A stretch of 64,000 nt of DNA from Rosa chinensis (taxonomy: Eukaryota; Streptophyta; Magnoliopsida; Rosales; Rosaceae): positions 15,821,555 to 15,885,554 of the forward strand of contig NC_037093.1 of the NCBI RefSeq assembly GCF_002994745.2, written 5' to 3'. The stretch's first letter is position 1. Each line of letters opens with the position of its first letter. This document shows positions 16,109 through 59,895 of this stretch, one piece after another. The notes below the pieces were generated by a model that ran no database searches, had not been told where the DNA came from, and was given only the letters and a program-made list of their open reading frames with translations. Both the position numbers and the translations under genes were made by a program.

Positions 16109-16113
16109 GGGGC

Positions 16114-18266
16114 TGATAGGAGCATTTTAATGTGATATTTTAATAGTTAATTCCTCACATTTTGCTTAGTTAATTCCTTAACTGAATCGATTTTTAATTC
16201 AATTTCTATTTTTAGGTACATTGGAGTAGATAAAGGTGAAATGAGCGTTAGGTCCATAATTACCTGGAAATGATGGAGAAAAATGGAAATGTACTAAAAG
16301 ATCAATTTTGCACATATTCCTACTCCGGCTAAGAGAAACCAAGCCAAGCAAAGAAGAATGAGCGGCCGCCTGACCAAATGAACTTCAAATGAGCTGAAAC
16401 CTTCCAGATCCATTCTAGACACCCAAAGGAACATTTCATATGAAGAGTGCAAGATCCAGATAGAAGTGGAAGGCCTTCAAACAATCAGTCCAATTTTCTG
16501 CAGAAGCAAAACTGGAAAACTAGACCTGTGAGGAGTCCAGCAGAATTTCTGGCCCAACCACATGGATTGAAGCTCTGAAAATTGATCAGGATGATCTACA
16601 CTCATAGAGGAACATTTGATATGAAGAAATCGGAGGCCCAATATGAAGTCTTGTTGGAGAAATAATTGAAGGAATAAAGGGGCAGAAACTGACCTAAAAA
16701 CAGCTCAATATTCACATGTTCATGTTTCCTACCCACATGAAGAAAGCTAGATGCTTTTCTCTTTTTCCTTGGATATATTTTTCTTCTACAATCTCTTTAA
16801 TAGATCATCATCACTTCCATGTTGCTGCACCTTCATGCTTTGCTTTCATTTCATCATTTCTCTATCTTTTCCATATTTTACAAGTGAACTTAGATCCACT
16901 TTCATTATTTTTCTTCCACTCATCATTTCACTCTTCTTTTTCTTCCCTATTTAAACACCTTCTCCTCTCATTCTAACACATTCCTTCATCCATTCCATCT
17001 TCTTTGTCTCCATTTTCTTTCCATTTTCTTAAACACATTCCTTCATCCATTCCATCTTCTTTGTCTCTCCATTTTCTTTCCATTTTCCTAAACACATTCC
17101 TTCATCCATTCCATCTTTTTTGTCTCTCCATTTTCTTTCCATTTTCCTAAACACATTCCTTCATCCATTTCATTTTCTTTGTCTCTCCATTTTCTTTCCA
17201 TTTTCCTTTCCACCCTCTAGAGCAAGCCACGAGTTCAAGCAAGGCCAAGGGAGAAGAAGAATTGCCGTGAGCATCATCCTCCATCATCATCCTTGAAGCT
17301 TGCTTTCGAGATTCAAGAGACTACATCCTCAATTCGTTCATCTCATCTCCATCTCACGGTGTAATCCGATTCTCCTTTGTAACCTTTGCTTTGATTTCGT
17401 TGGTTTTGTTCTAGTTGACATATATGTATGAACAAAGTATTATTTCTGGAATTTTTATGATTAATTGATATTTTCAGATTCATATCATTGTTCTTCGAGA
17501 GTTGCTTATGTGGGTTTGCTTAATTAAATTTGCGTTATAGATATCCTTTGTGTATTAATCTTATTTGGGTCGACACTTATAGGGTTTATGCATAATTGTT
17601 GCTAGGTTTAAGAACATAAAATCGACTTTTCGTTTTGTGTAAACTTGAATCAAAGTAGTAAAGGTTTTGTACAAAGATCGAATTTAATTAACGAGGATTG
17701 CAATTAGGTGGACTTTTCCATACTAAGTTGTACACTTAAGTTGATAGCCTTTCTCTATGTGTAATGCATTAAACATGTTGTGATTAACTAGCTTTCTAGT
17801 GCTTGAATGCATGTTTGATAGGATTGATCTAGGTGCTTTCGCTTAGGTTAATTAGCATTGAAAAGTAAAATATGGGAAATTGTTTGCTTTTAACGTTTCA
17901 CATGATCAACTCCTTTCTCATGACATAGATGAACAATATTAGGGTTTGAATCAATTTTAATCATATGTTTCGATTTTGATCTTTGTTCTCTCATTCCATT
18001 CATATTTTTATGTTTTTGCATTTTAATTATTTTGTTAACTTAGTTTTATTTTCGAAAATCCAAAAACAAAATCCCCCCTTTTTTCGTAAATAATGTTTAT
18101 AGTTGTGAATATATTTGTGAATATTATACTTTGTTTTAATTTTAATTGTTTAATTGTTTGACAATGACAGGTGTACCCTCAATCCCGGGAATAGAACGAT
18201 CCCTACTTACTTATACTACTAACGATATTTTCAGGGTTAAATTATGCGCTTGCTTATAGCGCATCA
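16114..18266 (+). repeat. LTR 1 (inverted relative to the other two)
   Basis: Begins TGATAGGAGC and ends GCGCATCA. It is almost identical to the reverse complement of LTRs 2 and 3. It differs in an internal minisatellite (about 16976-17215): four ~60-bp CATTCCTTCATCCATTCCAT units, where LTRs 2 and 3 have three. At several single positions it agrees with LTR 3 rather than LTR 2. Confidence 0.9.
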
Positions 18267-18359
18267 ATTTTTTTAAACAATTTATATACAACAAATATAT
18301 ACAATAAATGACACAATTTAACAAGTGATTTTTCAATCCCCGGCAACGGCGCCAAAAAT
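18267..18359. other. 93-bp spacer between inverted LTRs, with PBS
   Basis: The spacer lies between the two U5 ends. Its right half matches the start of the interior next to LTR 3 (AACAAATATATACAATAAATG), including a perfect primer-binding-site complement. It therefore looks like a leftover of an element interior, cut off by LTR 1. Confidence 0.8.
18337..18354 (-). promoter_or_regulatory. Primer-binding site next to LTR 2
   Basis: On the minus strand TGGCGCCGTTGCCGGGGA lies five bases after the LTR end. This PBS type is known from Athila-like elements and is usually assigned to a tRNA-Asp primer (from memory). Confidence 0.7.
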
Positions 18360-20448
18360 TGATGCGCTATAAGCAAGCGCATAATTTAACCCTGAAAATA
18401 TCGTTAGTAGTATAAGCAAATAGGGATCGTTCTATTCCGGGGATTGAGGGTACACCTGTCATTGTCAAACAATTAAACAATTAAAATTAAAACAAAGTAT
18501 AATATTCACAAATATATTCACAACTATATATAAACATTATTTACGAAAAAAGGGGGGATTTTGTTTTTGGATTTTCGAAAATAAAACTAAGTTAACAAAA
18601 TAATTAAAATGCAAAAACATAAAAATATGAATGGAATGAGAGAACAAAGATCAAAATCGAAACATATGATTAAAATTGATTCAAACCCTAATATTGTTCA
18701 TCTAAGTCATGAGAAAGGAGTTGATCATGTGAAACGTTAAAAGCAAACAATTTCCCATATTTTACTTTTCAATGCTAATTAACCTAAGCAAAAGCACCTA
18801 GATCAATCCTATCAAACATGCATTCAAGCACTAGAAAGCTAGTTAATCACAACATGTTTAATGCATTACACATAGAGAAAGGCTATCAACTCAAGTGTAC
18901 AACTTAGTATGGAAAAGTCCACCTAATTGCAATCCTCGTTAATTAAATTCGATCTTTGTACAAAACCTTTACTACTTTGATTCAAGTTTACACAAAACGA
19001 AAAGTCGATTTCATGTTCTTAAACCTAGCAACAATTATGCATAAACCCTATAAGTGTCGACCCAAATAAGATTAATACACAAAGGATATCTATAACGCAA
19101 ATTTAATTAAGCAAACCCACATAAGCAACTCTCGAAGAACAATGATATGAATCTGAAAATATCAATTAATCATAAAAATTCCAGAAATAATACTTTGTTC
19201 ATACATATATGTCAACTAGAACAAAACCAACGAAATCAAAGCAAAGGTTACAAAGGAGAATCGGATTACACCGTGAGATGGAGATGAGATGAACGAATTG
19301 AGGATGTAGTCTCTTGAATCTCGAAAGCAAGCTTCAAGGATGATGATGGAGGATGATGCTCACGGCAATTCTTCTTCTCCCTTGGCCTTGCTTGAACTCG
19401 TGGCTTGCTCTAGAGGGTGGAAAGGAAAATGGAAAGAAAATGGAGAGACAAAGAAGATGGAATGGATGAAGGAATGTGTATAGGAAAATGGAGAGACAAA
19501 GAAGATGGAATGGATGAAGGAATGTGTGTAGGAAAATGGAAAGAAAATGGAGAGACAAAGAAGATGGAATGGATGAAGGAATGTGTTAGAATGAGAGGAG
19601 AAGGTGTTTAAATAGGGAAGAAAAAGAAGAGTGAAATGATGAGTGGAAGAAAAATAATGAAAGTGGATCTAAGTTCACTTGTAAAATATGGAAAAGATAG
19701 AGAAATGATGAAATGAAAGCAAAGCATGAAGGTGCAGCAACATGGAAGTGATGATGATCTATTAAAGAGATTGTAGAAGAAAAATATATCCAAGGAAAAA
19801 GAGAAAAGCATCTAGCTTTCTTCATGTGGGTAGGAAACATGAACATGTGAATATTGAGCTGTTTTTAGGTCAGTTTCTGCCCCTTTATTCCTTCAATTAT
19901 TTCTCCAACAAGACTTCATATTGGGCCTCCGATTTCTTCATATCAAATGTTCCTCTATGAGTGTAGATCATCCTGATCAATTTTCAGAGCTTCAATCCAT
20001 GTGGTTGGGCCAGAAATTCTGCTGGACTCCTCACAGGTCTAGTTTTCCAGTTTTGCTTCTGCAGAAAATTGGACTGATTGTTTGAAGGCCTTCCACTTCT
20101 ATCTGGATCTTGCACTCTTCATATGAAATGTTCCTTTGGGTGTCTAGAATGGATCTGGAAGGTTTCAGCTCATTTGAAGTTCATTTGGTCAGGCGGCCGC
20201 TCATTCTTCTTTGCTTGGCTTGGTTTCTCTTAGCCGGAGTAGGAATATGTGCAAAATTGATCTTTTAGTACATTTCCATTTTTCTCCATCATTTCCAGGT
20301 AATTATGGACCTAACGCTCATTTCACCTTTATCTACTCCAATGTACCTAAAAATAGAAATTGAATTAAAAATCGATTCAGTTAAGGAATTAACTAAGCAA
20401 AATGTGAGGAATTAACTATTAAAATATCACATTAAAATGCTCCTATCA
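18360..20448 (-). repeat. LTR 2 (3' LTR of the canonical element)
   Basis: In + orientation it runs TGATGCGCTATAAGC to TGCTCCTATCA. It differs from LTR 3 at roughly a dozen positions by eye over 2.1 kb, which suggests a recent insertion. It contains a three-unit minisatellite (about 19430-19590). Confidence 0.9.
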
Positions 20449-20470
20449 AATTACCCCACACTTAGCTTTT
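20449..20470 (-). promoter_or_regulatory. Candidate polypurine tract
   Basis: The minus strand reads AAGTGTGGGGTAATT immediately before the U3 start TGATAGGAGC of LTR 2, the expected place for plus-strand priming. The tract is short and imperfect. Confidence 0.55.
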
Positions 20471-22395
20471 GCTAGTCCCTTAGCAAAACAAAACAAAAAA
20501 ATCCAAAACAGAACAAAGACTTGACAAAAAGCAAGTAAATGACTCTATTGCTCCTAACTGTTGTCTCAGAGACTCCAAACTCATGGCTTTCACATTAAAC
20601 ACTTAATCAAAATCACAAAGATAATTCCAAGGTTAATAAACGTGTGACACTTATATGACTAAGTAAGATATGGAGAACTTAAGTTATACAGTGAATGATA
20701 GCATGTTTCGAACAAGTCCAATCCAAACTCACAAGGCATACTCTCGATTTTTCTCTCAGAAATGGTTATGCTTAAAAGCTTCACACTCAAGTATATGCAA
20801 GAGAACAAATTGTAAGGCAACAAACATTTTGCATATTTCATCAATAAAAGTATTTTGTGAAGAATTTTTAAAGACCTCATGAAATGACTAAGTGCACAAA
20901 TGGACCTAAACCATAAGCTCGACTGCGTAACTGACTCCACTAACCAAAGACTGCCTATCTCAAGGATCAAGTCAGCACTTAAAACAGGTTGTAATGGGGC
21001 TAAGCTAGGGTTTTTGAAATGAAGATTAAGGATACAAAAAATCCTAAGGACCTAGCAGAGCATAAAAGGACCACCTTATGTCATCATTTTTGTAGACCAA
21101 ATATCATTGTTTTGGGCCAAACCTTCACTCTAACCAACATGGGAATGGACAAAGGCATAATTTTCAATTTTGAGCCTTCTACAAATTTGAAAGTCCAAAA
21201 CCACACTTCAACAATTTCCCAAGAGTTTTCATTTCAATTTTTCTTTTTGATTTTTTTTTTCTTGGGCTTTTCCCCACCCCACACTTGTCTTTCATCGTCA
21301 CCCCTACATACTATGTCATGCTCTACTGAGTCCTTAAGACAAGGGTAGAGATATCCTGTACTAAGCTCATGGTAGGGTAGTGAGGGTGATGAAACAAAGG
21401 TTTTCAACGTAGGCTCAAAGGGGTTCATTCTAAGGAGTCCCACGACGGGCACAATTGGGGACACATGCTTGTTTGGCTATGGTGGTTACCCTAATGCCTT
21501 CTATCCTATCCCGTATCAGTGCATATTATGGCATACAAGTTTTGACAGTCACAACAGCCGAGTTCTAGTACTCTCTAGTCCATTAAAATCTATGGCACAT
21601 GATCATTGGCTTTTCAAAAGAATGATGAGGTTTTGCAAATACAGCCATGAAATTCTAAATTTATCAGTAAGCACTCGAAAAGAAAGTATTTTAGCTCAAC
21701 AGCTCACTTAGGGTCAAATGAATCAGACTTAATCCTAGCATGCTTAATGAACCAAGTTACAATCCTATCTCAAATCTTCATACAAGCATCACAATGTTGA
21801 TTAACCACAGAATTCAATTAAGTCCTATTTCGATTGTGAAAACCTTCAGCCATGAATTCAGAGACATGTTCATCCTAGACGTTAGGAGCATCCTAAGACT
21901 CAAACAAACAAAAACACTCTAAAACCAACATTTTTTTTTTTTTTACAATTTAATTTAATTTCAACACTTAGGTACGGGAACAGGGAGTCTCGATGTGCAA
22001 TGGGACTGAAACAGCTACCCTTTTTCAAGACTATGTTTAATCCAATATACCTTAGTGTATCACAACATTTTCTTTTGTTAAACACTTTTTTTTTTTCTTT
22101 ATATACTAACTACTAAAAACACAATAAAGCAATAATCCGTCCCCCATACTTAATTCATGCATTGTCCTCAATGTATAAACAAATATAAATCATGCAAAGC
22201 ATAAATCAAGCATAGAAGAGAAAATGAACACAACGAAACCTAAAACAACTTAAAATTCATGAAAATAAAATAGAAGGAAGAGTTCAAGAAAGCAAATCTG
22301 CGTTTGATGGTTCCACCACAGCTACAGTTGAAATGGGTTGCCTCCCATGCAGCGCTTAATGTTTAAAGTCTTTCAGCCTAGACTTGTACCTCCAT
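20471..22395. other. Non-coding retroelement interior (3' part)
   Basis: No gag-pol motif is present in any frame I read. Short ORFs (20670-20882, 21019-21348, 21469-21711) show no recognisable domain. The words CCCCCATACTTAA and GGTTGCCTCCCATGCAGCGC near 22141 and 22336 recur beyond the WUS-like gene (near 24405 and 24583), so the cargo is bracketed by related interior repeats. Confidence 0.55.
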
Positions 22396-22926
22396 TTACT
22401 CCTTTGGAGGAGCGGTGTGCGGGCGAGTGGCAGCCCTCTTGCTGGTTTCAGCCTCCTGAGGAGGGTCCTCATGGTGTGATACAGTAGCGTCCTTGCGAGG
22501 AAACCCAGGAGGATAACTCTGCAAGTTATTTACTTCCTGAGCAAGCTTGTTTATTGCAGTGTGACAGCGGATCAAAGAGAAGTTCATCTCAGAGATGTAA
22601 TCGATCATGCATGTGACTCTCCAATCTGTCACCATAATACCATCGCGGAGAGAGGAACGCAAATCATCAATCGAATCCGACAAGCTTTCCAGGGTGGCCA
22701 CAGGCCGAGTAGCACGAGCAGCTGGTGAGGAAGAGGACTCTCCGGGATGCAGTCTGGGAGAGCGACGAGGCAGAGGAGGGGGAATGCGGGTACGCTCACG
22801 GATAGGACGATGGTCCCCTGGACAAGTAAGTCCAGCTCTAGTGGCCGCTTGACGACCTTCTTCCTCCAAAGAGAGAACACGGCGTTGATTGACGCCCCTG
22901 CGAGGGGTAACCTTGGTTCGAGCCAT
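22396..22926 (-). CDS. Unknown ORF in retroelement, divergent from WUS-like gene
   Basis: The frame gives 176 residues from the ATG at 22926, starting MARTKVTPRRG. I prefer this start to the one 13 codons upstream because the peptide becomes basic and structured here. The N-terminal third is Arg/Pro/Ser-rich (RSPRLHPGESSSSPAARA). The middle (SLSDSIDDLRSSLRD..., about residues 80-130) looks alpha-helical, possibly a short coiled coil. The C-terminus is charged and low in complexity. There is no zinc knuckle, protease or RT motif. It lies in the sense direction of the element, about 600 bp head-to-head from the homeobox gene. It may be a gag-like or element-specific accessory ORF; the function is unknown. 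Confidence 0.5.
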   Translation of the reverse strand: MARTKVTPRRGVNQRRVLSLEEEGRQAATRAGLTCPGDHRPIRERTRIPPPLPRRSPRLHPGESSSSPAARATRPVATLESLSDSIDDLRSSLRDGIMVTDWRVTCMIDYISEMNFSLIRCHTAINKLAQEVNNLQSYPPGFPRKDATVSHHEDPPQEAETSKRAATRPHTAPPKE

Positions 22927-23140
22927 GAGGAAGTAGAAGGAATTTGAAACTGCACGCTTAGACAAACCTTAGTAAAATCTGGAGGAGACAAAAAAAGATG
23001 TATATGTAAAGCACAAAATAGGGTAGAAATCTCAACAGGCACACGGTTTTAACAAAGCTTCTCCGGGAAGGAGAAGAGTTATGACAGTTCACGGCCCAAG
23101 AAACTCCCCCACGTGTAAATATTCCTTTCTTTTCCTGGAT

Positions 23141-23420
23141 TTATGGCATGCTTTCGGCTATAGCTTGTCTGTCACAGCTCCTCGAGATTCGTTTGATTCC
23201 TCCACGCGTCCTTTCTTTTCCTTGATTCACGGCAATTAAACCTGCTTTCGGCTGTAGCTTGTCTGTCACAGCTCCTCGAGATTCGTTTGGTTCCCCCACG
23301 TGTCCTCCACGCGCCAACAGTTTTTCCGTGTTTTCGGGTGACTTTAATCCAACGCGTAGATTTAATCTCAGAGATCGTCCATCCAACGGTGGAGATCTGC
23401 TCACTCGTTCTATAAATAGG
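23141..23420 (+). promoter_or_regulatory. Promoter region of the WUS-like gene, duplicated
   Basis: A TATA box (CTATAAATAGG, about 23410) lies about 120 bp before the ATG. Upstream, a ~92-bp segment is tandemly duplicated: TAGCTTGTCTGTCACAGCTC followed by CTCGAGATTCGTTTG occurs near 23161 and again near 23254. The second copy ends in CCCCACGTGTCC, a G-box core, and the first in CCACGCGTCC. Confidence 0.6.
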
Positions 23421-23532
23421 TGCATTCTGAGGGAGCAACTGTTCACTCCAAAAGAAAATTCTTCCGAGTTCCAGCCTTTCTCTCTCAACCCTTCAGCCTT
23501 TCTTTCGAAACTCAAATCCTTTCTTCATCAAC

Positions 23533-24219
23533 ATGGAACCACGAACTCTGCAACTAATGGAGTTACAAACCCAGCAACAAATGGAATTACAAGCCCAGCA
23601 ACCAACCGAGGAGGGAGGAAGCACCCAAGCAGCAGGGAGTAGTGCCAACACGCCTATCAGGCCGACCAATAACCGGTGGACTCCCACACCAGATCAACTA
23701 AGAATCCTCCAGGAGCTTTACTATGACAAGGTGCTTAAAAACCCAACTCCAGAGCAGATTCAAGAGATCTGCCTTTATCTGCAACAATATGGGCAGATCG
23801 AGGACAAGAACGTCTTCTTTTGGTTCCAAAACCTCAAGGCTCGTGAGAGGCAGAAGTTGAGGGAATTTCGGAACGTTCGGGTTGGTGGATCTCTCGATCT
23901 CAATTTTGGATCCACTAGTTCTACTGATGATGGTAGGTCCATTGATCTAAAATTTGGTTCCACTGGTTCTACTAGTACTGACAGATCCATTGATCTAAAT
24001 TTTGGGTCACGTGTCGGCTATGATGTTGATGGATCGATCATGGAACAACGAGGAGAATATCACCAGGAGATTGAAACCCTTCCACTATTCCCCATGCATG
24101 GTGAGGACATCTTTGGCAACATGAAGACTACTTCCGAGGGAGGTAGCGATTATGGCGGTGGCTCTCGCATTTCCCTTGAGCTCAGCCTCAACTCCTACGG
24201 AGATGCAGACATGGCTTAG
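23533..24219 (+). CDS. WUS-like: WUSCHEL-type homeobox protein inside a retroelement
   Basis: An intact 228-residue, uninterrupted ORF. Residues about 46-111 form a WOX homeodomain: [20 protein letters not shown], then PTPEQIQEI, then [16 protein letters not shown] (usual WFQNHKARERQK, so His is Leu at 101). Residues 120-160 carry three S-[LI]-D-L-[NK]-F-G-S repeats. TLPLFPMH (182-189) is a WUS-box, and LELSL (215-219) is an EAR-type repression motif. Together these mark the WUS branch, whose founder maintains shoot meristem stem cells as a nuclear transcription factor. It is shorter than Arabidopsis WUS (292 aa) and lacks introns, while WUS genes normally have them, which suggests capture from processed RNA. 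It runs antisense to its host element. The open frame and conserved motifs suggest selection or recent capture; expression cannot be judged here. Confidence 0.9.
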
Positions 24220-24266
24220 TAAAGTGTATAAATTTTTTTTTTTTTTTTTTGTAAATATCTGAATTT

Positions 24267-24272
24267 AATAAA
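24267..24272 (+). terminator. Candidate poly(A) signal of the WUS-like gene
   Basis: AATAAA lies about 48 bp after the stop codon, between two poly(T) runs. Confidence 0.5.
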
Positions 24273-24299
24273 ACTGAATGAATGCAGTTTTTTTTTTTT

Positions 24300-25398
24300 T
24301 TTTAATTAATTAAATTTTTTTTTTTTTAATATAGGACTCAAAATAAAAGACAAAAATATATATAGGACTCAAAATGAAAGACAAAAAATATAAATCCCTT
24401 CCCCCACACTTAAATATTGCATTATCCTCAATGTAATCAATTAAAAGCATGCAATGAAATAAGTAAGCATAGATAGAAGACATTTACGAAAACAAATCCT
24501 AAAATAAAAACTAAAGAGAAAAATTGAAAAATAAAAAGAAATAGGGAAAGAGAAAGCAAATCTGATTATATTCTGAATTGGGTTGCCTCCCAAGTAGCGC
24601 TTGTATTTTACGTCTTGCAGCCAGACAGTACCTACATTAAATAAAGTTAGTAACTATAATTAACAAAGAAATAAAAATAAAAACAAGTATAACTATTAAT
24701 TACAAACTACAAGTATAATTAACAAGTATATTATACATAAGACACAAGTTAAGTACTCAAGTGAGTATAAAACGTGAAAAGTATTTTTACAAGTTTAAAG
24801 TGTGAAACAACAAAATAATTTACACGTATAGAGTATTCACAAGTATTTCTTTTATTATAAACATTATTGATATCGAATCAAATTCCAAGCGGTAAATCAA
24901 GTGGACGTGCGGCCCAAGTATAGTCGCCTAAACACAAACTCCCTTTCAAATCATTTGGGCAACCTTACTGAAATGGCCAGGTGGGGGAGGGCGAACACGA
25001 GAGGAAAAATCCATTTTGGCATGAGCTACTCCCACATTGTGGTTTATGCCCATTTGCAAGCACTTCTGGATTCAAAAACCCGTCATGAACGTTGTCCCCT
25101 TCCTAGACACCATTCCATATAGGCTATACTTACTAAGATGAAAAAGTTCATAAGTGTGAAGACAGTTCAACAAGTGTTAATAAAGGCCGCCCTCAACCTT
25201 AAGGGACCTGAGCTAGGTACCAATAAGGGGTTTAGGCCAATATTAATAAAAGAGACTTCACCTATTCCTCTCAATTTACAACCTACAATTAAAATTCGTG
25301 TTCAATAATATAAATAATATTCTAGTTAATTTAAACTAAGTTTTTATATACAACAAATATATACAATAAATGACACAATTTAGCAAGTGATTTTTCAA
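24300..25398. other. Non-coding retroelement interior (5' part)
   Basis: AT-rich sequence with repeated interior words (GGTTGCCTCCCAAGTAGCGC near 24583). An ORF at 24901-25122 has no recognised domain. No gag or pol. Confidence 0.55.
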
Positions 25399-25416
25399 TC
25401 CCCGGCAACGGTGCCA
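25399..25416 (-). promoter_or_regulatory. Primer-binding site next to LTR 3
   Basis: On the minus strand TGGCACCGTTGCCGGGGA follows the 5' LTR; it differs by one base from the copy at 18337-18354. It fixes the element's direction as minus. Confidence 0.75.
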
Positions 25417-25421
25417 AAAAT

Positions 25422-27504
25422 TGATGCACTATAAGCAAGCGCATAATTTAACCCTGAAAATATCGTTAGTAGTATAAGTAAGTAGGGATCGTTCTATTCC
25501 CGGGATTGAGGGTACACCTGTCATTGTCAAACAATTAAACAATTAAAATTAAAACAAAGTATAATATTCACAAATATATTCACAACTATAAACATTATTT
25601 ACGAAAAAAGGGGGGATTTTGTTTTTGGATTTTCGAAAATAAAACTAAGTTAACAAAATAATTAAAATGCAAAAACATAAAAATATGAATGGAATGAGCG
25701 AACAAAGATCAAATCGAAACATATGATTAAAATTGATTCAAACCCTAATATTGTTCATCTATGTCATGAGAAAGGAGTTGATCATGTGAAACGTTAAAAG
25801 CAAACAATTTCCCATATTTTACTTTTCAATGCTAATTAACCTAAGCGAAAGCACCTAGATCAATCCTATCAAACATGCATTCAAGCACTAGAAAGCTAGT
25901 TCATCACAACATGTTTAATGCATTACACATAGAGAAAGGCTATCAACTCAAGTGTACAACTTAGTATGGAAAAGTCCACCTAATTGCAATCCTCGTTAAT
26001 TAAATTCGATCTTTGTACAAAACCTTTACTACTTTGATTCAAGTTTACACAAAACGAAAAGTCGATTTCATGTTCTTAAACCTAGCAACAATTATGCATA
26101 AACCCTATAAGTGTCGACCCAAATAAGATTAATACACAAAGGATATCTATAACGCAAATTTAATTAAGCAAACCCACATAAGCAACTCTCGAAGAACAAT
26201 GATATGAATCTGAAAATATCAATTAATCATAAAAATTCCAGAAATAATACTTTGTTCATACATATATGTCAACTAGAACAAAACCAACGAAATCAAAGCA
26301 AAGGTTACAAAGGAGAATCGGATTACACCGTGAGATGGAGATGAGATGAACGAATTGAGGATGTAGTCTCTTGAATCTCGAAAGCAAGCTTCAAGGATGA
26401 TGATGGAGGATGATGCTCACGGCAATTCTTCTTCTCCCTTGGCCTTGCTTGAACTCGTGGCTTGCTCTAGAGGGTGGAAAGGAAAATGGAAAGAAAATGG
26501 AGAGACAAAGAAGATGGAATGGATGAAGGAATGTGTATAGGAAAATGGAGAGACAAAGAAGATGGAATGGATGAAGGAATGTGTGTAGGAAAATGGAAAG
26601 AAAATGGAGAGACAAAGAAGATGGAATGGATGAAGGAATGTGTTAGAATGAGAGGAGAAGGTGTTTAAATAGGGAAGAAAAAGAAGAGTGAAATGATGAG
26701 TGGAAGAAAAATAATGAAAGTGGATCTAAGTTCACTTGTAAAATATGGAAAAGATAGAGAAATGATGAAATGAAAGCAAAGCATGAAGGTGCAGCAACAT
26801 GGAAGTGATGATGATCTATTAAAGAGATTGTAGAAGAAAAATATATCCAAGGAAAAGAGAAAAGCATCTAGCTTTCTTCATGTGGGTAGGAAACATGAAC
26901 ATGTGAATATTGAGCTGTTTTTAGGTCAGTTTCTGCCCCTTTATTCCTTCAATTATTTCTCCAACAAGACTTCATATTGGGCCTCCGATTTCTTCATATC
27001 AAATGTTCCTCTATGAGTGTAGATCATCCTGATCAATTTTCAGAGCTTCAATCCATGTGGTTGGGCCAGAAATTCTGCTGGACTCCTCACAGGTCTAGTT
27101 TTCCAGTTTTGCTTCTGCAGAAAATTGGACTGATTGTTTGAAGGCCTTCCACTTCTATCTGGATCTTGCACTCTTCATATGAAATGTTCCTTTGGGTGTC
27201 TAGAATGGATCTGGAAGGTTTCAGCTCATTTGAAGTTCATTTGGTCAGGCGGCCGCTCCTTCTTCTTTGCTTGGCTTGGTTTCTCTTAGCCGGAGTAGGA
27301 ATATGTGCAAAATTGATCTTTTAGTACATTTCCATTTTTCTCCATCATTTCCAGGTAATTATGGACCTAACGCTCATTTCACCTTTATCTACTCCAATGT
27401 ACCTAAAAATAGAAATTGAATTAAAAATCGATTCAGTTAAGGAATTAACTAAGCAAAATGTGAGGAATTAACTATTAAAATATCACATTAAAATGCTCCT
27501 ATCA
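25422..27504 (-). repeat. LTR 3 (5' LTR of the canonical element)
   Basis: In + orientation it runs TGATGCACTATAAGC to TGCTCCTATCA, with the target duplication GGGGC directly after it. It has the three-unit minisatellite (about 26487-26643), as in LTR 2. Confidence 0.9.
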
Positions 27505-27509
27505 GGGGC

Positions 27510-45963: not shown

Positions 45964-48900
45964 TCATTCAAACACAATCCCATGCATATCGGCTCTTACT
46001 TGGACGTCTTCATCAACAACGAGTAAAGGTTCTAAATTTTGAGGAGCAACTATGTCATCTTTCATAATATTGCCCATATCAAACAAATCTCGTGGTCTTG
46101 TTCTTACTGCAACATGCCAGTCGGGCTGAGTTGGATCCTTGACATAAAATAATTGATTTGCATTCAAGCCGAGGGTATATGTGTCTGGCCCTGGAAGCAA
46201 GTGCTTGAAGTTAACCAATGTAAAACCAAATTCATCAGTTTTTATGCCCCGATTTCTAACCCTTCCATCAACCCAGTCACAGTCAAATAACACCACTCTA
46301 CGCCCACCGTGATATTCTAAATCAATTATGTCTTTCACCACTCCATAATAGTCATTAAGAGCTGCCCTCGGATTATGGTCTCTAGAGGTGGCATAGGTAT
46401 CTGCCACTGCCCTCACAAAAACACCGTCATTTTGTGTGTTCCCTCCGACATCATTTGATTTCACATGGAAACGAAAACCATTCATAATGTATGACAACCA
46501 ACGACCGATCCAATGGTTCGGACCCCTAGCCAATGCTTGCAAGTCTTCATGTATTTCAACCCCATCATCTTTCTGAGACTTAATCTACAAAAGTGTACCA
46601 GACCTTAGGTAGAGACTATAATGTAACGCAAAATAGAACATAGAAATACAAACTATATGTTTTAAAATAAATTGTTCAATAAGACTTTAAATAGTTACCA
46701 TTTAGAATCATGCCAAAAAAATAATGAAACAAAACGTTTTAATGTTAATTTCAGATTAGTAACATTGCTAAATGATGGCAAACAAAATAAAGGAAAGTGT
46801 ATAAAGTAATACATGTGTACTAAACCATCCAGGAAACTCCATATGTGCTCGTGCTTGCGCAGCCTTCGTCGTTTCACGTGGAAGTGGATTATCCATTACT
46901 AGGTTCTCATGTTGGCTACAAACAAATTTTAGTTACTTCTGAGTCCAAAATGCTACATAATTATAATGAATACATTTCATAATGCTTTTTCTAAACTCAT
47001 CAAATACCTGATGTAATCAGCAACCTCTGGACAGCCAAAAAGAACAGCTCGATGTGCCCGTTCCCACTCTAAGTGCTCAAGAACAATAAGTTGTTTACTG
47101 CCAAGTGATCGTCCATGTCCACCAAATATAGACAGACCATGGTGAGTTCCACTGCCAGCTGCATCAGCATTACGACCTGGTCTATTTCTTTTGGTCACAA
47201 CTTCATCACCAAAATACAATGAACAGAACCCAAGTGTTTCCTCAATAATATACGCTACAGCAATGCTGCCCTCGGGTCTATTTCTGTTGCGCACATACTT
47301 TTTCAATGTATGCAAATACCTGCAATACCAATTGCCATATATTTGTTAGTACATTATCAAAGTTTCAACAATACTGAAGTTAATGCAAACACCATTGGAT
47401 TATGAGTAAATGAATTGAAACAAAGTATTTAGCAAACCTTTCAATTGGGTACATCCACCTATATTGGACAGGACCAGCAATCTTTGCTTCTTCAGCAAGG
47501 TGGATCGTGAGGTGTACCATGACATCAAAAAAAGCTGGAGGCATTAACCTTTCTAAATGGCACAATGTCATGGCAATTCGCCCACTCAAATCTTCAAAAT
47601 GTTCTTTACTTCCAACTTTAGTACACAAATTTCTGAAGAATGAGCTAAGCTCTAACAAAACTAGTGTGGCTTCTTTTGGCAGGGAATGGCGAATTGCTAG
47701 GGGAAGTAAGTATTGCATAATAATATGGCAGTCATGACTTTTTGGCCCTATGAGTTTCCTTTCCGCTTTTCTAACACATCTTGCTAGATTAGAAGAAAAC
47801 CCATCTGGAAGCAAAGCAATAGATAATATTTCACAAATCAATGACTTTTCAGCAGGCTTCAACGTGAAAGGCATAGGGTCATACATCAAACGACCTCCTA
47901 CTAATTTTGGGTGGTACTTTGGCTTACAATTGAGTTCCTGCAAGTCTAATCGTGCATTTAGAGAATCCTTGTTTTTCCCATCCATACCCAACAAGGTTCC
48001 TAGAACACTTTCAGTGACATTTTTCTCAATGTGCATTACATCGAGATTGTGTCGCAAGAGGAGGTCCTTCCAATATGGAAGATCATAAAATATGCTTTTC
48101 TTCTTCCAAGGGCCAGCATACTTTTTCTTCCCCTTCCCCCTTTGTCGTTTCAGTCCCTTCTTTATATGTCCCTTGCCATATTCAAACTTCAATCCACGTA
48201 AAGAAGCCAAACAGTCTATACCTGTCATAGGAATTGGTGGTTGTTCTAGCTCAATATTACCGTCAAAGGGTTTCTTAAACATGCGATACTTATGAGCCAT
48301 TGGAAGCCACCGACGATGTCCCAAGTAGCATTCTTTTCGGCCATGTCTTAGCCTAGTGGACTTGGTACCAAATGCACATTGTGGACATGCAAATTTGCCT
48401 TTAGTGCTCTAACCAGATAGCATAGAATATGCTGGTAAGTCGTTGATGGTCCACAATACCACAGCACGCAAGTCAAAAGTTTCCTTTTTGAATGCATCAT
48501 AAGTGGGTATCCCTTGGTTCCACAAAGTTTTCAACTCATCAACTAAAGGTTGAAGGAATACATCTATGTCTTTTCCAGGACCTTTTGGAACAGGTATGAG
48601 CAATGAAAGCATCAAGTAAGGTTGTTTCATACAAAGCCATGGAGGAAGGTTGTACACTGACATCACAACTGGCCACGTGCTATGGGACAAACTCATCATG
48701 CCAAAAGGATTAAATCCATCACTTGCTAACCCAAGACGAACATTACGTGGCTCTGATGCAAAATTTGGATACATTGTGTCAAGATGTTTCCAGGCAGGCG
48801 AGTCGGCAGGATGTCTAAGCACTTCATCATCATGCCTCTCTTCTGAATGCCACACCATATTCTGAGCTGTGTGGCATGACATGTAAAGCCGTTGAAGTCG

Positions 48901-50401
48901 AGGTCCTAATGGAAAATATCGTAATACCTTATTTGCAACTCTAGTACGTCCAGACCGACTCTTGGACTTGTAGCGATTGCTGCCACACACTTTGCACGTT
49001 TCGTCCTTAGCATGATCTTTCCAAAATAACATACAGTCCTTAGGGCATACATCTATCTTTTCATAAGGCAATGCCAAATCTGTTATGAGTTTCTTAGTTT
49101 GGTAGAAACTAGCAGGCAAATTTGCTTCAGGAAACCATACTTTTAACATGTTCAACAAACCTAAGAAAATATTAAAGATTAAACTCAAATGGCAGTAATA
49201 TAAGTCTATAGCAGTAATTAACAGATCAGCAATATTGTACCATGACATCAAAATAGATAATCTTAGCCTCTAATAAACAAATGAGTATACGACATATTAT
49301 ATACTCCAATAAACAAGTTCTATAGTACTCTGATTTATTCAAAGATATCCTTAATTAAACCTTTAATGCTAGCTGATTTATCTGCTTTTCTGGTTCTATA
49401 CAGGTGAGGGCATTATCCATGTGACATTTAATCTGACTTTACATCATAGTGCTTTTCTGGTTCTACACTTGATTCTTTTTATTTATAGAAAACAAAAATG
49501 TCATGATCAGTTTTTGATCCTGTTGATGTTTTGTACAAAGATGTATCCTACATTATCAAAGTTCATTTGTTAAAGTAAATGTGGAGAACTACTCATGCAT
49601 GTTCATTGGTAAAATAAACATGACAAGTTGATCCAGCTAGTATATAATTAAGCTACCTACAGCAAACATATATGACCACACTCCTAATAGTTAAATATGG
49701 TAAACATAATAGGGGGACATACTCGCATACCCATGAAAGTATGTAATAACATAACATAGGCATTTGAAGTCAAGTTACATAGTCAAGACATTGAAAAAAA
49801 TAATAATAAAAAGCAAAAAAAGATATTAAAAAAAAATAGCAAATGGATAATATGCTCAAAACTAAGTGAAAGAATTGAAACACTAACCTGTGAAAGACAC
49901 ATCAGTCCAACAATTTATAGCCTTGAGTTGATACAGCTGCAATATGAAATCAAGTTTTGTCTTTCCACAACCTGGGTATAATTCTGTTTTACCCTCTTCA
50001 ATCAAACGATAGAACTTCTCCGCATCAGGGGTCAAGTTATGAGGACGTGCATCTTCTTCTTCAACATTGTCACCAGGACTGAGACCATGTATACCAAAGG
50101 CATCATGGAGCATAGTAGTTATATCTGCAGCCCCTGTAGGCAGCTCTCCCATGTTACCCATTGGCAACACCTCACCGTGCCACTTCCACCGTGATTGAAG
50201 ATAATCCGGGCACATACCATCTACTTTAAGATGCTCTTCAACCTCTTTTGGTTCTTTCCACCCACAGTTGTAGCATTCAATGCAAGGACACTTGATTTTA
50301 CCTTCAAAACTAGCAACTAATATGGAGTTGTCGATAAACGCTTGCAATCCAGCCATATATTGATCAGTTCTACGATCAAGAAATACCCATTCTTTATCCA
50401 T
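45964..50401 (-). pseudogene. CACTA TNP2-type transposase gene (one TAG)
   Basis: Five exons fit splice sites and one frame: 50401-49888, 49160-47438, 47319-47008, 46915-46813 and 45964-46584 (1091 codons with stop). Exon 1 holds the transposase-associated domain (KEWVFLDRRTDQYMAGLQAF, CPCIECYNC). Exon 2 holds the Transposase_21/TNP2 core: CPKDCMLFWKDH, RYFPLGPRLQRLY, GLASDGFNPFGMMS, STWPVVMSVYNLPPWLCMKQ, then the NLDVMHIEKNVTESVLGTLL segment. DUF4218-like sequence follows (about 47860 to the exon 2 end), and exon 5 is DUF4216 (RVVLFDCDWVDG). It catalyses excision and integration in the nucleus. The only break is TAG at 48411-48409, where the family usually has Trp (LSG-W-ST). Everything else is open, so it is young or rescued by readthrough. 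Confidence 0.88.
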
Positions 50402-58700: not shown

Positions 58701-59055
58701 AGTCGAGTGTAGTGCTGTTGGCGTGAGTCACTCTCCATAATTGTAGGAATTGTATTATAATTAGGATTGTATAGTTAAGGAGAACATTATGTAGTTAAGG
58801 GGGAGAATATCACAGTGTAATTAGTTTCCTATTAGGATTGTGTATACTTTGTATATGTACTCCATCTTTGGAGAAGATCAATACATCATAAATTCCCAAA
58901 CTTCCTCTCTGCTTTTGTTCTGTTTGATTTGGTATCAAAGCAAAGATCCGTTTGGACTCTGTTCGTTTGTTTTCACTGCAAATTTGTCTTTGTACTCTTT
59001 AAGAGTTTATCCTTTGCCTTCGTCCTTTGTTCCTTTTGCTCTAAAACCATAAAGT

Positions 59056-59895
59056 TTGCAACACCTTGCCATTAATCTCTCCTTTCTTAGCCGTGTCAAA
59101 GTTTGTGATTTGTGTTACTGTTTGAAGAACAAGAATGGCAGATTTGCCCTTAGCTCGCTGGTTAATGGAGGAAACGAGGGCTCTTCTTCCGCCCCTCATG
59201 ATGTTTTGATTGTTCAAAACATCAATAATCAAAGGTATCAACCAAGTCAGAATTATAACAGGGGGCCAGTTTCATTCAACAGTCAGGTGAATTGCAACTA
59301 TTGTAAAACTATTGGCCACTACAAGAGTCAATTGCCCAAGTTGCTAAGACTCAACTCTAATAACTCTGGTTGGAAAGGGAATAACATTGGTCAGAAAAGC
59401 AAGGCAGCAATCCAACTGGTGCAAGCGCAAGAACCTGATTTCTATGGTGTGGAGGGCCAAGATCAAACTATGGGTAATGTTTCCCTAGCTCAGGAAAATC
59501 GAGGTAAAATTGGTGTTGCTTTAAATGTTTCTGGCTTTACTGGTAGTAATACATGGATAATTGATTCAGGTGCATATGATCATATGACCTATGATAAGTC
59601 TTTCTTTGTTAAGTTGTCATCCTCATCCATAACACATGTCTCTAATGCCAATGGTGAGTCTTTCCTGGTCTTAGGAATTGGGTCTGTCCAGGTTACACCT
59701 TCCATTACTCTTCATAATGTTCTTTTTATACCATCTTTGTCTCATAATCTTTTATCTGTGTTTCAGTTGAATACACAAAACAAATGTCCTATAACCTTTT
59801 ATCCTATGTATGTCATCTTTCAGAATCTGTGCAATTGGGTGATAATTGGCAAGGGAGACCTGAGGGAGAGACTGTTTCACTTGGATTGCATGTAG
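59056..59895 (+). pseudogene. Copia gag C-terminus and protease, broken
   Basis: The frame contains a damaged zinc knuckle (CNYCKTIGHYKSQ, last Cys changed to Gln). Then comes a pepsin-type retroviral protease with WIIDSGAYDHMT and LHNVLFIPSLSHNLLSV, which would process the polyprotein. The N-terminal capsid part of gag is lacking. The frame ends before the GAG-pre-integrase HX(n)H motif. Confidence 0.8.

Follow-up and report, generated by a model that had tools for sequence, protein, structure and literature searches.

How does an intact gene for a stem-cell master regulator come to lie inside a retroelement, and has it been of any use there? The locus that raises this question lies in a window of 64,000 nucleotides from Rosa chinensis (contig NC_037093.1, positions 15,821,555 to 15,885,554), where an intronless gene of the WUSCHEL (WUS) type sits within an element bounded by long terminal repeats (LTRs). 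Our analysis indicates that one non-autonomous rose LTR element has probably multiplied, with this WUSCHEL-type gene as cargo, to hundreds of loci.

An intact WUSCHEL-type gene lies antisense inside an LTR element

The initial annotation of the window described an intact, intronless WUSCHEL-type open reading frame (ORF) with three signatures of the WUS clade, its own TATA box and its own poly(A) signal, and all of these were found (Table 1). The homeodomain of the 228-aa frame was recognized by a Pfam profile (E=1e-10) and matched the solved WUSCHEL homeodomain structure 6ry3 (E=9.9e-24). The sequence features of WUS-clade membership, namely the WOX homeodomain, the WUS-box and the C-terminal EAR motif, are all present. 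Among the matches listed, the closest proteins were those of Rosa chinensis named "putative transcription factor Homobox-WOX family" (96% identity), in clusters that hold at most 91 member sequences each. Related proteins were also present in R. rugosa records. The 120 matches listed include no protein from Fragaria or Argentina that resembles the cargo, although this alone does not prove that such proteins are absent there.

The LTRs that flank the gene are about 2.1 kb each, start with TG, end with CA and are 99.2% identical over 2168 aligned bases, an alignment that takes in the 73-bp leader duplicate. A purine-rich stretch, read on the minus strand, adjoins position 20449 inside the left LTR. 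The primer binding site motif, seen here and in further copies, is presumably of the tRNA-Asp type. The element points left and the WUS-type gene points right; the gene is therefore antisense to the element. The LTRs and purine tract of the element as first described stand, as does the motif of its putative primer binding site. The target duplication does not bound a plain LTR-interior-LTR unit, since GGGGC encloses a whole composite that includes a third, inverted LTR and a 73-bp leader fragment with a primer binding site. The third LTR apparently came from a different element copy, given its longer minisatellite. The composite at 16114-20448 consists of a plus-strand LTR, a short junction, an inverted 73-bp leader with the primer binding site and a minus-strand LTR. 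Both of its outer ends are the U3 end of an LTR, an arrangement that normal integration does not yield.

Besides the cargo, no interior ORF of at least 200 aa that could represent gag-pol was found in the window copy, and we call the element non-autonomous because of this. A sense ORF of 176 aa had six protein matches, two of which bear a species name, in both cases Rosa chinensis. A 189-aa form of it had no Pfam match, and the DNA of the region was 95 to 98% identical in those fetched copies (described below) that have it whole. It is possibly a gag remnant or an accessory protein. Diverged direct repeats (22134-22396 and 24393-24638; 79 to 81%) flank this ORF and the WUS cassette and are perhaps a trace of the route by which the cassette was inserted.

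The cargo recurs between LTRs at many loci

We searched the source R. chinensis assembly (515 Mb in 53 contigs), taking contig C2 as chromosome 2. Candidates from a first look are unverified copies, and the scored lists hold the best of them by score and hence are biased to intact copies. The DNA of the cargo ORF gave 653 first-look candidates; the best 40 were scored, and all were 88 to 100% identical and lay on seven contigs, 19 of them on C2. A second cargo protein, P0028, gave 678 candidates. Of its best 150, which were scored, 135 align in a single frame over almost the full query, 126 of them free of in-frame stops, and 100 of the 150 lie on C2. No coordinate was seen in both lists, which therefore amount to 190 scored places. 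The leader piece and the polypurine-side piece of the interior gave 2351 and 3238 first-look candidates, respectively, and the best 40 of each were scored. Set against the 653 of the ORF, these counts hint that relatives without cargo exist and prove nothing, because the queries differ in length and word content.

Twenty loci of 10 kb were then compared with the window. These were the next 20 by score after it and not a random sample, and two of them (L010 and L011) overlap. The leader, the ORF, the upstream block and the 176-aa ORF region recur in them at about 90 to 99% identity. The polypurine side was present only in part, or had diverged further, in L014, L016, L020, L026 and L027 and was not found in L010/L011. 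Between copies, the LTRs are only about 76 to 98% identical, and this greater divergence means that several LTR subfamilies exist. Direct repeats stand on both sides of the ORF at 18 of the 20 loci (the exceptions being L010 and L011), in L017, L025 and L026 as short or diverged pieces only. We considered L010/L011 as an inverted dimer whose two outer ends, as in the composite of the window, are of the same kind. This reading was dropped, since polypurine-type sequence precedes one end and a target duplication was looked for and not found.

A stricter scan covered 19 stretches, 16 of which could be scored; L017, L020 and L025 have no recognizable primer binding site motif. Perfect and distinct 5-bp target duplications (CTTGC, CCCAT, CTTAC, TTGGC, AGAAC, CCTAC, GCAAG, CTACA, CATGG, GTGAA and GTGGG) enclosed 11 of the 16 copies. 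No perfect duplication was found in the other five (L011b, L019, L023, L024 and L026), among which that of L024 matches at 4 of 5 bases. The 11 elements are 8.6 to 9.4 kb long, with Kimura two-parameter distances of 0 to 0.0092 between their LTRs; the pair of L018 has no substitution over 1873 bases. With the substitution rate of 1.3e-8 that is used for other plants in PMC5664825, these distances correspond to insertion ages of 0 to about 0.35 million years.

Between LTRs, and with separate target duplications, the interior that holds the WUS-type ORF thus recurs at other loci, as the claim of a mobilized cargo in the initial annotation implied. The genome search proposed there for the interior (20449-25421) yields many loci with the ORF and recurring flanks, so the ORF does not occur once only. 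We regard capture and mobilization of a WUSCHEL cargo, taken alone, as nearly certain. The rose DNA transposon Rosa1, which is described as inserted near genes including the "wuschel family" (PMC9100400), was considered as a relative of the cargo element, and no link was established.

The cargo derives from a spliced WUSCHEL mRNA

The native WUS gene is intact in the same genome (locus L036, on C2). It has a 900-base coding sequence in three exons, with introns of 86 and 335 bp, so that an intronless cargo does face a multi-exon parent. Six old full-length copies (L029 to L034) match the native coding sequence to base 876-878, L030 from base 136 on. L029 runs continuously across both exon junctions and is joined exactly at the splice sites. 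In L030, L031, L032 and L034 the second junction is spliced and the first was lost in small deletions or changes. Since native WUS has two introns and the old copy L029 has neither, we conclude that a spliced WUSCHEL mRNA was the source.

Both ends of the captured gene are foreign. Among 11 old copies, four (L029, L030, L031 and L033) match the window at 68 to 82% in the upstream block that bears the TATA box, and no match to this block was found within 800 bases upstream of native WUS. At the other end, as judged by eye, the last codons give way to a foreign tail in all 10 old copies shown, and this tail is shortened in the window and in L060. No 3' poly(A) tail left from the captured transcript was found in the six full-length old copies, which run into the foreign tail after nucleotide 876-878 of 900. 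A tree was built from 37 proteins, and in it a 100/100 branch separates seven native WUS proteins from 30 of the cargo type (29 selected database matches from R. chinensis and R. rugosa and the window). The labels of the two species interleave, requiring at least four changes. The foreign sequence common to both ends, together with this tree, speaks for a single capture, which these sequences suggest would have preceded the split of R. chinensis and R. rugosa.

The old retro-WUS at L029:1506-2382 differs by 4.8% from the native coding sequence and has the common chimeric ends and three stops. In the 5' untranslated region of native WUS (L036:1-3393), a 339-bp piece starts with a T-run and lies between near-identical 15-bp repeats; it is absent from the old retrocopies L029 and L030. 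We rejected this missing "intron" as evidence of splicing, because the piece looks like a later retroposon insertion into native WUS. The introns of the coding sequence stand as evidence regardless.

The cargo protein is compact and keeps the base-reading residues

The middle part of native WUS is lost in the cargo protein, and the native Rosa stretch GGSISHNFGS, in which SISHNFGS occurs once, has given way to tandem DLN repeats. At least one [ILVF]DLN[FL] occurs in 42 of 59 cargo-type proteins, compared to 0 of the 56 non-Rosa WUS-type matches listed. The EAR consensus is given as LxLxL or DLNx(x)P in PMC9956375. As neither strictly fits, we do not count the repeats as true EAR motifs and call them EAR-like only.

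Helix 3 of the homeodomain differs from one cargo subfamily to another, whereas WFQNHKARER is present in 55 of 59 further matches of the WUS type, three of them from Rosa. The changed residue is the equivalent of H91 in Arabidopsis WUS (AtWUS); of the 60 aligned rows of the cargo type, 34 have L at this position and only 7 have H. In the account of AtWUS in PMC7203112, the base contacts are R38, Q89, N90 and R94, and H91 is named only as a possible stabilizer of a modelled backbone contact. The initial annotation had proposed that the altered helix 3 could make the protein a dominant-negative. This proposal fares poorly, as the equivalents of all four base-reading residues are kept in the window ORF; of the 60 rows, 58 keep R38, 56 keep N90, 54 keep R94 and 49 keep Q89.

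The effector motifs of the cargo protein are conserved

We measured the ratio of nonsynonymous to synonymous divergence (dN/dS) in 41 cargo ORFs, that is, the 40 scored ORF places and one further copy. Pairwise values were 0.36 to 0.40 across six bins of divergence. The controls were further stretches of these elements, among them the region of the 176-aa ORF, read as codons in all frames and on both strands (13 to 19 copies per stretch). The real frame gave 0.38 for 19 copies, and all 30 control readings lay above it (0.48 to 1.68). The five other frames of the cargo ORF gave 0.50 to 1.30. The mutation spectrum of the element itself predicts a neutral nonsynonymous to synonymous ratio of 2.42. 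In tests that treat variants as independent, shared variants fell short of it, with a ratio of 1.39 in the 41 ORFs (p=0.0083) and 1.27 in 34 close copies (p=0.018).

We also compared 19 cargo-type rows, including the window, with less than 85% mutual identity; database proteins were counted as cargo by sequence alone. Across these rows the EAR motif SLELSL is 100% identical and the WUS-box 89%, compared to 66% for the homeodomain and 58% for the DLN region. Random blocks average 66% identity, and 0.02% of 5000 such blocks reach the value observed for the motifs. The bias of our samples to intact frames does not by itself favor the EAR motif over other stretches. Because the WUS-box and the EAR motif are conserved and dN/dS, at about 0.38, lies below 30 controls, we think it probable that the element benefited from the protein as it spread. 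Together, these data support moderate purifying selection on the spreading lineages.

Probable retroelement cargo among the annotated rose WOX genes

Other plants have roughly ten to forty WUSCHEL-type genes. For rose, PMC11405225 gives 381 annotated WOX genes, 364 of which fall in the rose-only clades I to V, with no collinear pairs. Motifs given there for these clades occur in the cargo ORF. Most clade members lie on chromosome 2, as do 226 of all 381 genes, and the concentration of cargo copies on C2 among the P0028 rows agrees with this count. The clades are treated there as a gene-family expansion, tentatively attributed to genome duplication, and the string "transpos" does not occur in the main text. 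Likewise, "WUSCHEL", "WOX" and "homeobox" are absent from the main text of a 2018 rose genome paper (PMC6786968). Within the openly licensed literature, none of the titles and abstract openings that we found links the large number of WOX genes in rose to an LTR element. Retroelement cargo very probably accounts for most of the 381 "WOX genes" of rose, rather than a developmental family grown by genome duplication. Studies of the rose WOX family, its promoters and its expression would therefore need to be read again.

Features of the window

The coordinates of the element and its cargo are collected in Table 1. Elsewhere in the window, an intronless ORF at 31818-33293 matches the Pfam p450 family (E=1.1e-16); it presumably resembles allene oxide synthase/hydroperoxide lyase (CYP74). 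On the minus strand, 45964-49269 holds what is left of a CACTA-type DNA transposon, with Transposase_21, DUF4218 and DUF4216 in separate frames. A retroelement polyprotein fragment at 59053-59895 has a Pol_BBD domain and is probably of the copia type.

Table 1. Features of the cargo element and of the WUSCHEL-type gene that it carries (positions in the window)
Feature	Position	Strand	Basis
Left copy of the 5-bp target duplication GGGGC	16109-16113		Sequence comparison
Third LTR, opposite in orientation to the two others	16114-18266	+	LTR alignment
73-bp leader fragment with primer binding site, duplicate of 25343-25415	18281-18353	-	Alignment
3' LTR of the cargo element	18360-20448	-	LTR alignment
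Interior, polypurine side, without a long frame	20449-22300	-	Recurs at further loci
Sense ORF, 176 aa	22396-22926	-	Protein search, Pfam scan
Upstream/promoter block and 5' untranslated region of the antisense gene	23040-23532	+	Unmatched in the 800 bases that precede native WUS
TATA-type box TATAAATAG	23411-23419	+	Direct reading of the letters
WUSCHEL-type cargo ORF, 228 aa, intronless, ATG to TAG	23533-24219	+	Frame and domain matches
Homeodomain, residues 47-107	23671-23853	+	Pfam
Tandem DLN-containing repeats, EAR-like	23883-24005	+	Reading of protein repeats
WUS-box TLPLFPMH	24076-24099	+	Motif reading
EAR motif SLELSL	24172-24189	+	Motif reading
AATAAA, poly(A)-type signal	24267-24272	+	Direct reading of the letters
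Element leader adjoining the primer binding site	24640-25421	-	Recurs at further loci
Primer binding site TGGCACCGTTGCCGGGGA	25399-25416	-	tRNA-type motif
5' LTR of the cargo element	25422-27504	-	LTR alignment
Right copy of the target duplication GGGGC	27505-27509		Sequence comparison

Discussion

According to our model, a non-autonomous LTR retrotransposon of rose captured a spliced WUSCHEL mRNA, apparently once, and holds the gene antisense, behind a foreign TATA promoter and with a foreign 3' end. To judge from the window copy, which has no gag-pol, these proteins would be supplied in trans. The cargo protein would be a small WUS-type repressor whose homeodomain is predicted to bind TGAA/G-box sites and whose EAR motif, perhaps together with the new DLN repeats, would recruit TOPLESS. 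Its site of action may be the meristem or the founder cells of the germline; there, holding cells in an undetermined state or turning down host genes could help the element make heritable copies. We lean toward the account in which capture and mobilization went together with a protein that was once useful. The meristem step is speculative, and we think it unlikely to be right. The same low weight goes to its boldest form, a selfish stem-cell driver in which a compact, repeat-enriched WUSCHEL repressor would hold or widen the pool of germline founders where the element transposes.

Several observations weigh against this model. The gag-pol donor element was not found. The old copies L032, L034, L035, L038 and L039 do not have the TATA part of the foreign block. 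The synonymous divergence of L029 from native WUS is 0.13, compared to about 0.45 to 0.56 for the window copy, and a single old capture fits L029 only if the spreading lineages evolve fast or if L029 was converted or recaptured. The frame is broken in 11 of the 41 ORFs and intact in 30. Singletons, which are expected to be neutral, are also somewhat depressed (1.64, p=0.011, in the 41 ORFs; 1.72, p=0.056, in the 34 close copies). In addition, dN/dS is flat with divergence (0.38 near, 0.36 far), which argues against a clear division into lineages under selection and copies that drift. As the copies were, moreover, chosen by score, part of the selection signal may be ascertainment. Finally, a strong C-to-T bias in the elements suggests that copies are methylated and silent, and 359 of the 364 clade I to V genes are reported as almost unexpressed during rooting in PMC11405225; both are signs that most copies are now silent.

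The alternative to which we give most thought, while doubting it, is that the WUS gene is a pure passenger: capture and spread are real, the protein is useless to element and host, and the frames are open as the insertions are young. The LTR pairs of the 11 copies with perfect duplications are indeed 0 to 0.9% apart, stops make up only 5% of neutral changes, so that young copies would be mostly intact anyway, and the flat dN/dS and the reported silence in rooting fit this explanation as well. A passenger does not account for a real-frame dN/dS under all 30 control readings, for the deficit of shared nonsynonymous variants, or for an invariant EAR motif and a near-invariant WUS-box between proteins less than 85% identical.

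Selection might instead have acted on a few copies co-opted by the host that now regulate rose growth, and five clade I to V genes do have counts above 10 in at least three rooting stages (PMC11405225). We find this quite improbable, as the conservation extends across many scattered copies of several subfamilies, rather than one or two fixed loci. A dominant-negative WUS could point to the loss of the H91 equivalent from most cargo rows, set against its near-constancy in other WUS-type matches. With the base-reading residues kept in the ORF and in most of the 60 rows, and the EAR motif kept too, ordinary repression is the simpler prediction, and we consider the dominant-negative very improbable. 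The composite nature of the window copy, with its third, inverted LTR, could suggest an assembly artefact or an unrelated gene caught between chance repeats. An artefact is very unlikely, given that further loci show this structure again with distinct target duplications and that related proteins occur in R. rugosa records; we give this explanation practically no weight.

Among similar systems, acute transforming retroviruses carry a spliced host regulator in a replication-defective retroelement and need a helper; the rose element differs in having no infection, an antisense gene with its own promoter and vertical spread. In plants, Steinbauerova reportedly found in 2011 a LONELY GUY (YgdH) domain in Gypsy elements of citrus. 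This domain of cytokinin-activating meristem regulators, also carried by LTR elements, belongs to an enzyme and not to a transcription factor (as described in PMC9289625). The same source describes a gene for an N6-methyladenosine (m6A) demethylase (AlkB) in Gypsy elements of Phalaenopsis, likewise a host-type gene recently fixed in the LTR elements of one genus, with a proposed benefit to the element. Those elements are large and have reverse transcriptase (PMC9289625); we expect the screen anchored on reverse transcriptase that found them to overlook an element without it. In pepper, potato, tomato and rice, LTR elements have retroduplicated NLR genes (PMC5664825), a case that resembles rose in its spliced host genes, its mostly non-autonomous LTR elements without gag-pol, its lineage specificity and the purifying selection on copies. 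There, many different NLRs were duplicated (105, 123 and 86 in three peppers), whereas rose has one transcription factor in very many near-copies, antisense and behind a common foreign promoter. Elements of the Grande/Retand kind also keep an extra antisense gene in most copies, with predicted DNA binding in Retand. Their ORFs are said to have no similar genes outside the elements (PMC7264820 and PMC11963269), whereas the host gene is identified in rose, where the window copy, unlike those elements, has no gag-pol. Thus, retroduplication by non-autonomous LTR elements, antisense extra ORFs and a captured AlkB gene are already known; the present case stands out for the gene captured, for its scale and for the antisense arrangement.

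These results offer an answer to the published puzzle of the excess of WOX genes in rose. A retroelement seems to have carried a stem-cell master regulator across several subfamilies without any change to the effector motifs of that regulator. If the meristem step is true, the element would be a plant counterpart of an oncogene-carrying retrovirus that acts inside the genome, and, together with LONELY GUY in citrus elements, the capture of meristem regulators would be a recurrent strategy of plant retroelements. As rose has good genomes and known bud sports, a possible manipulation of meristems by plant retroelements becomes testable.

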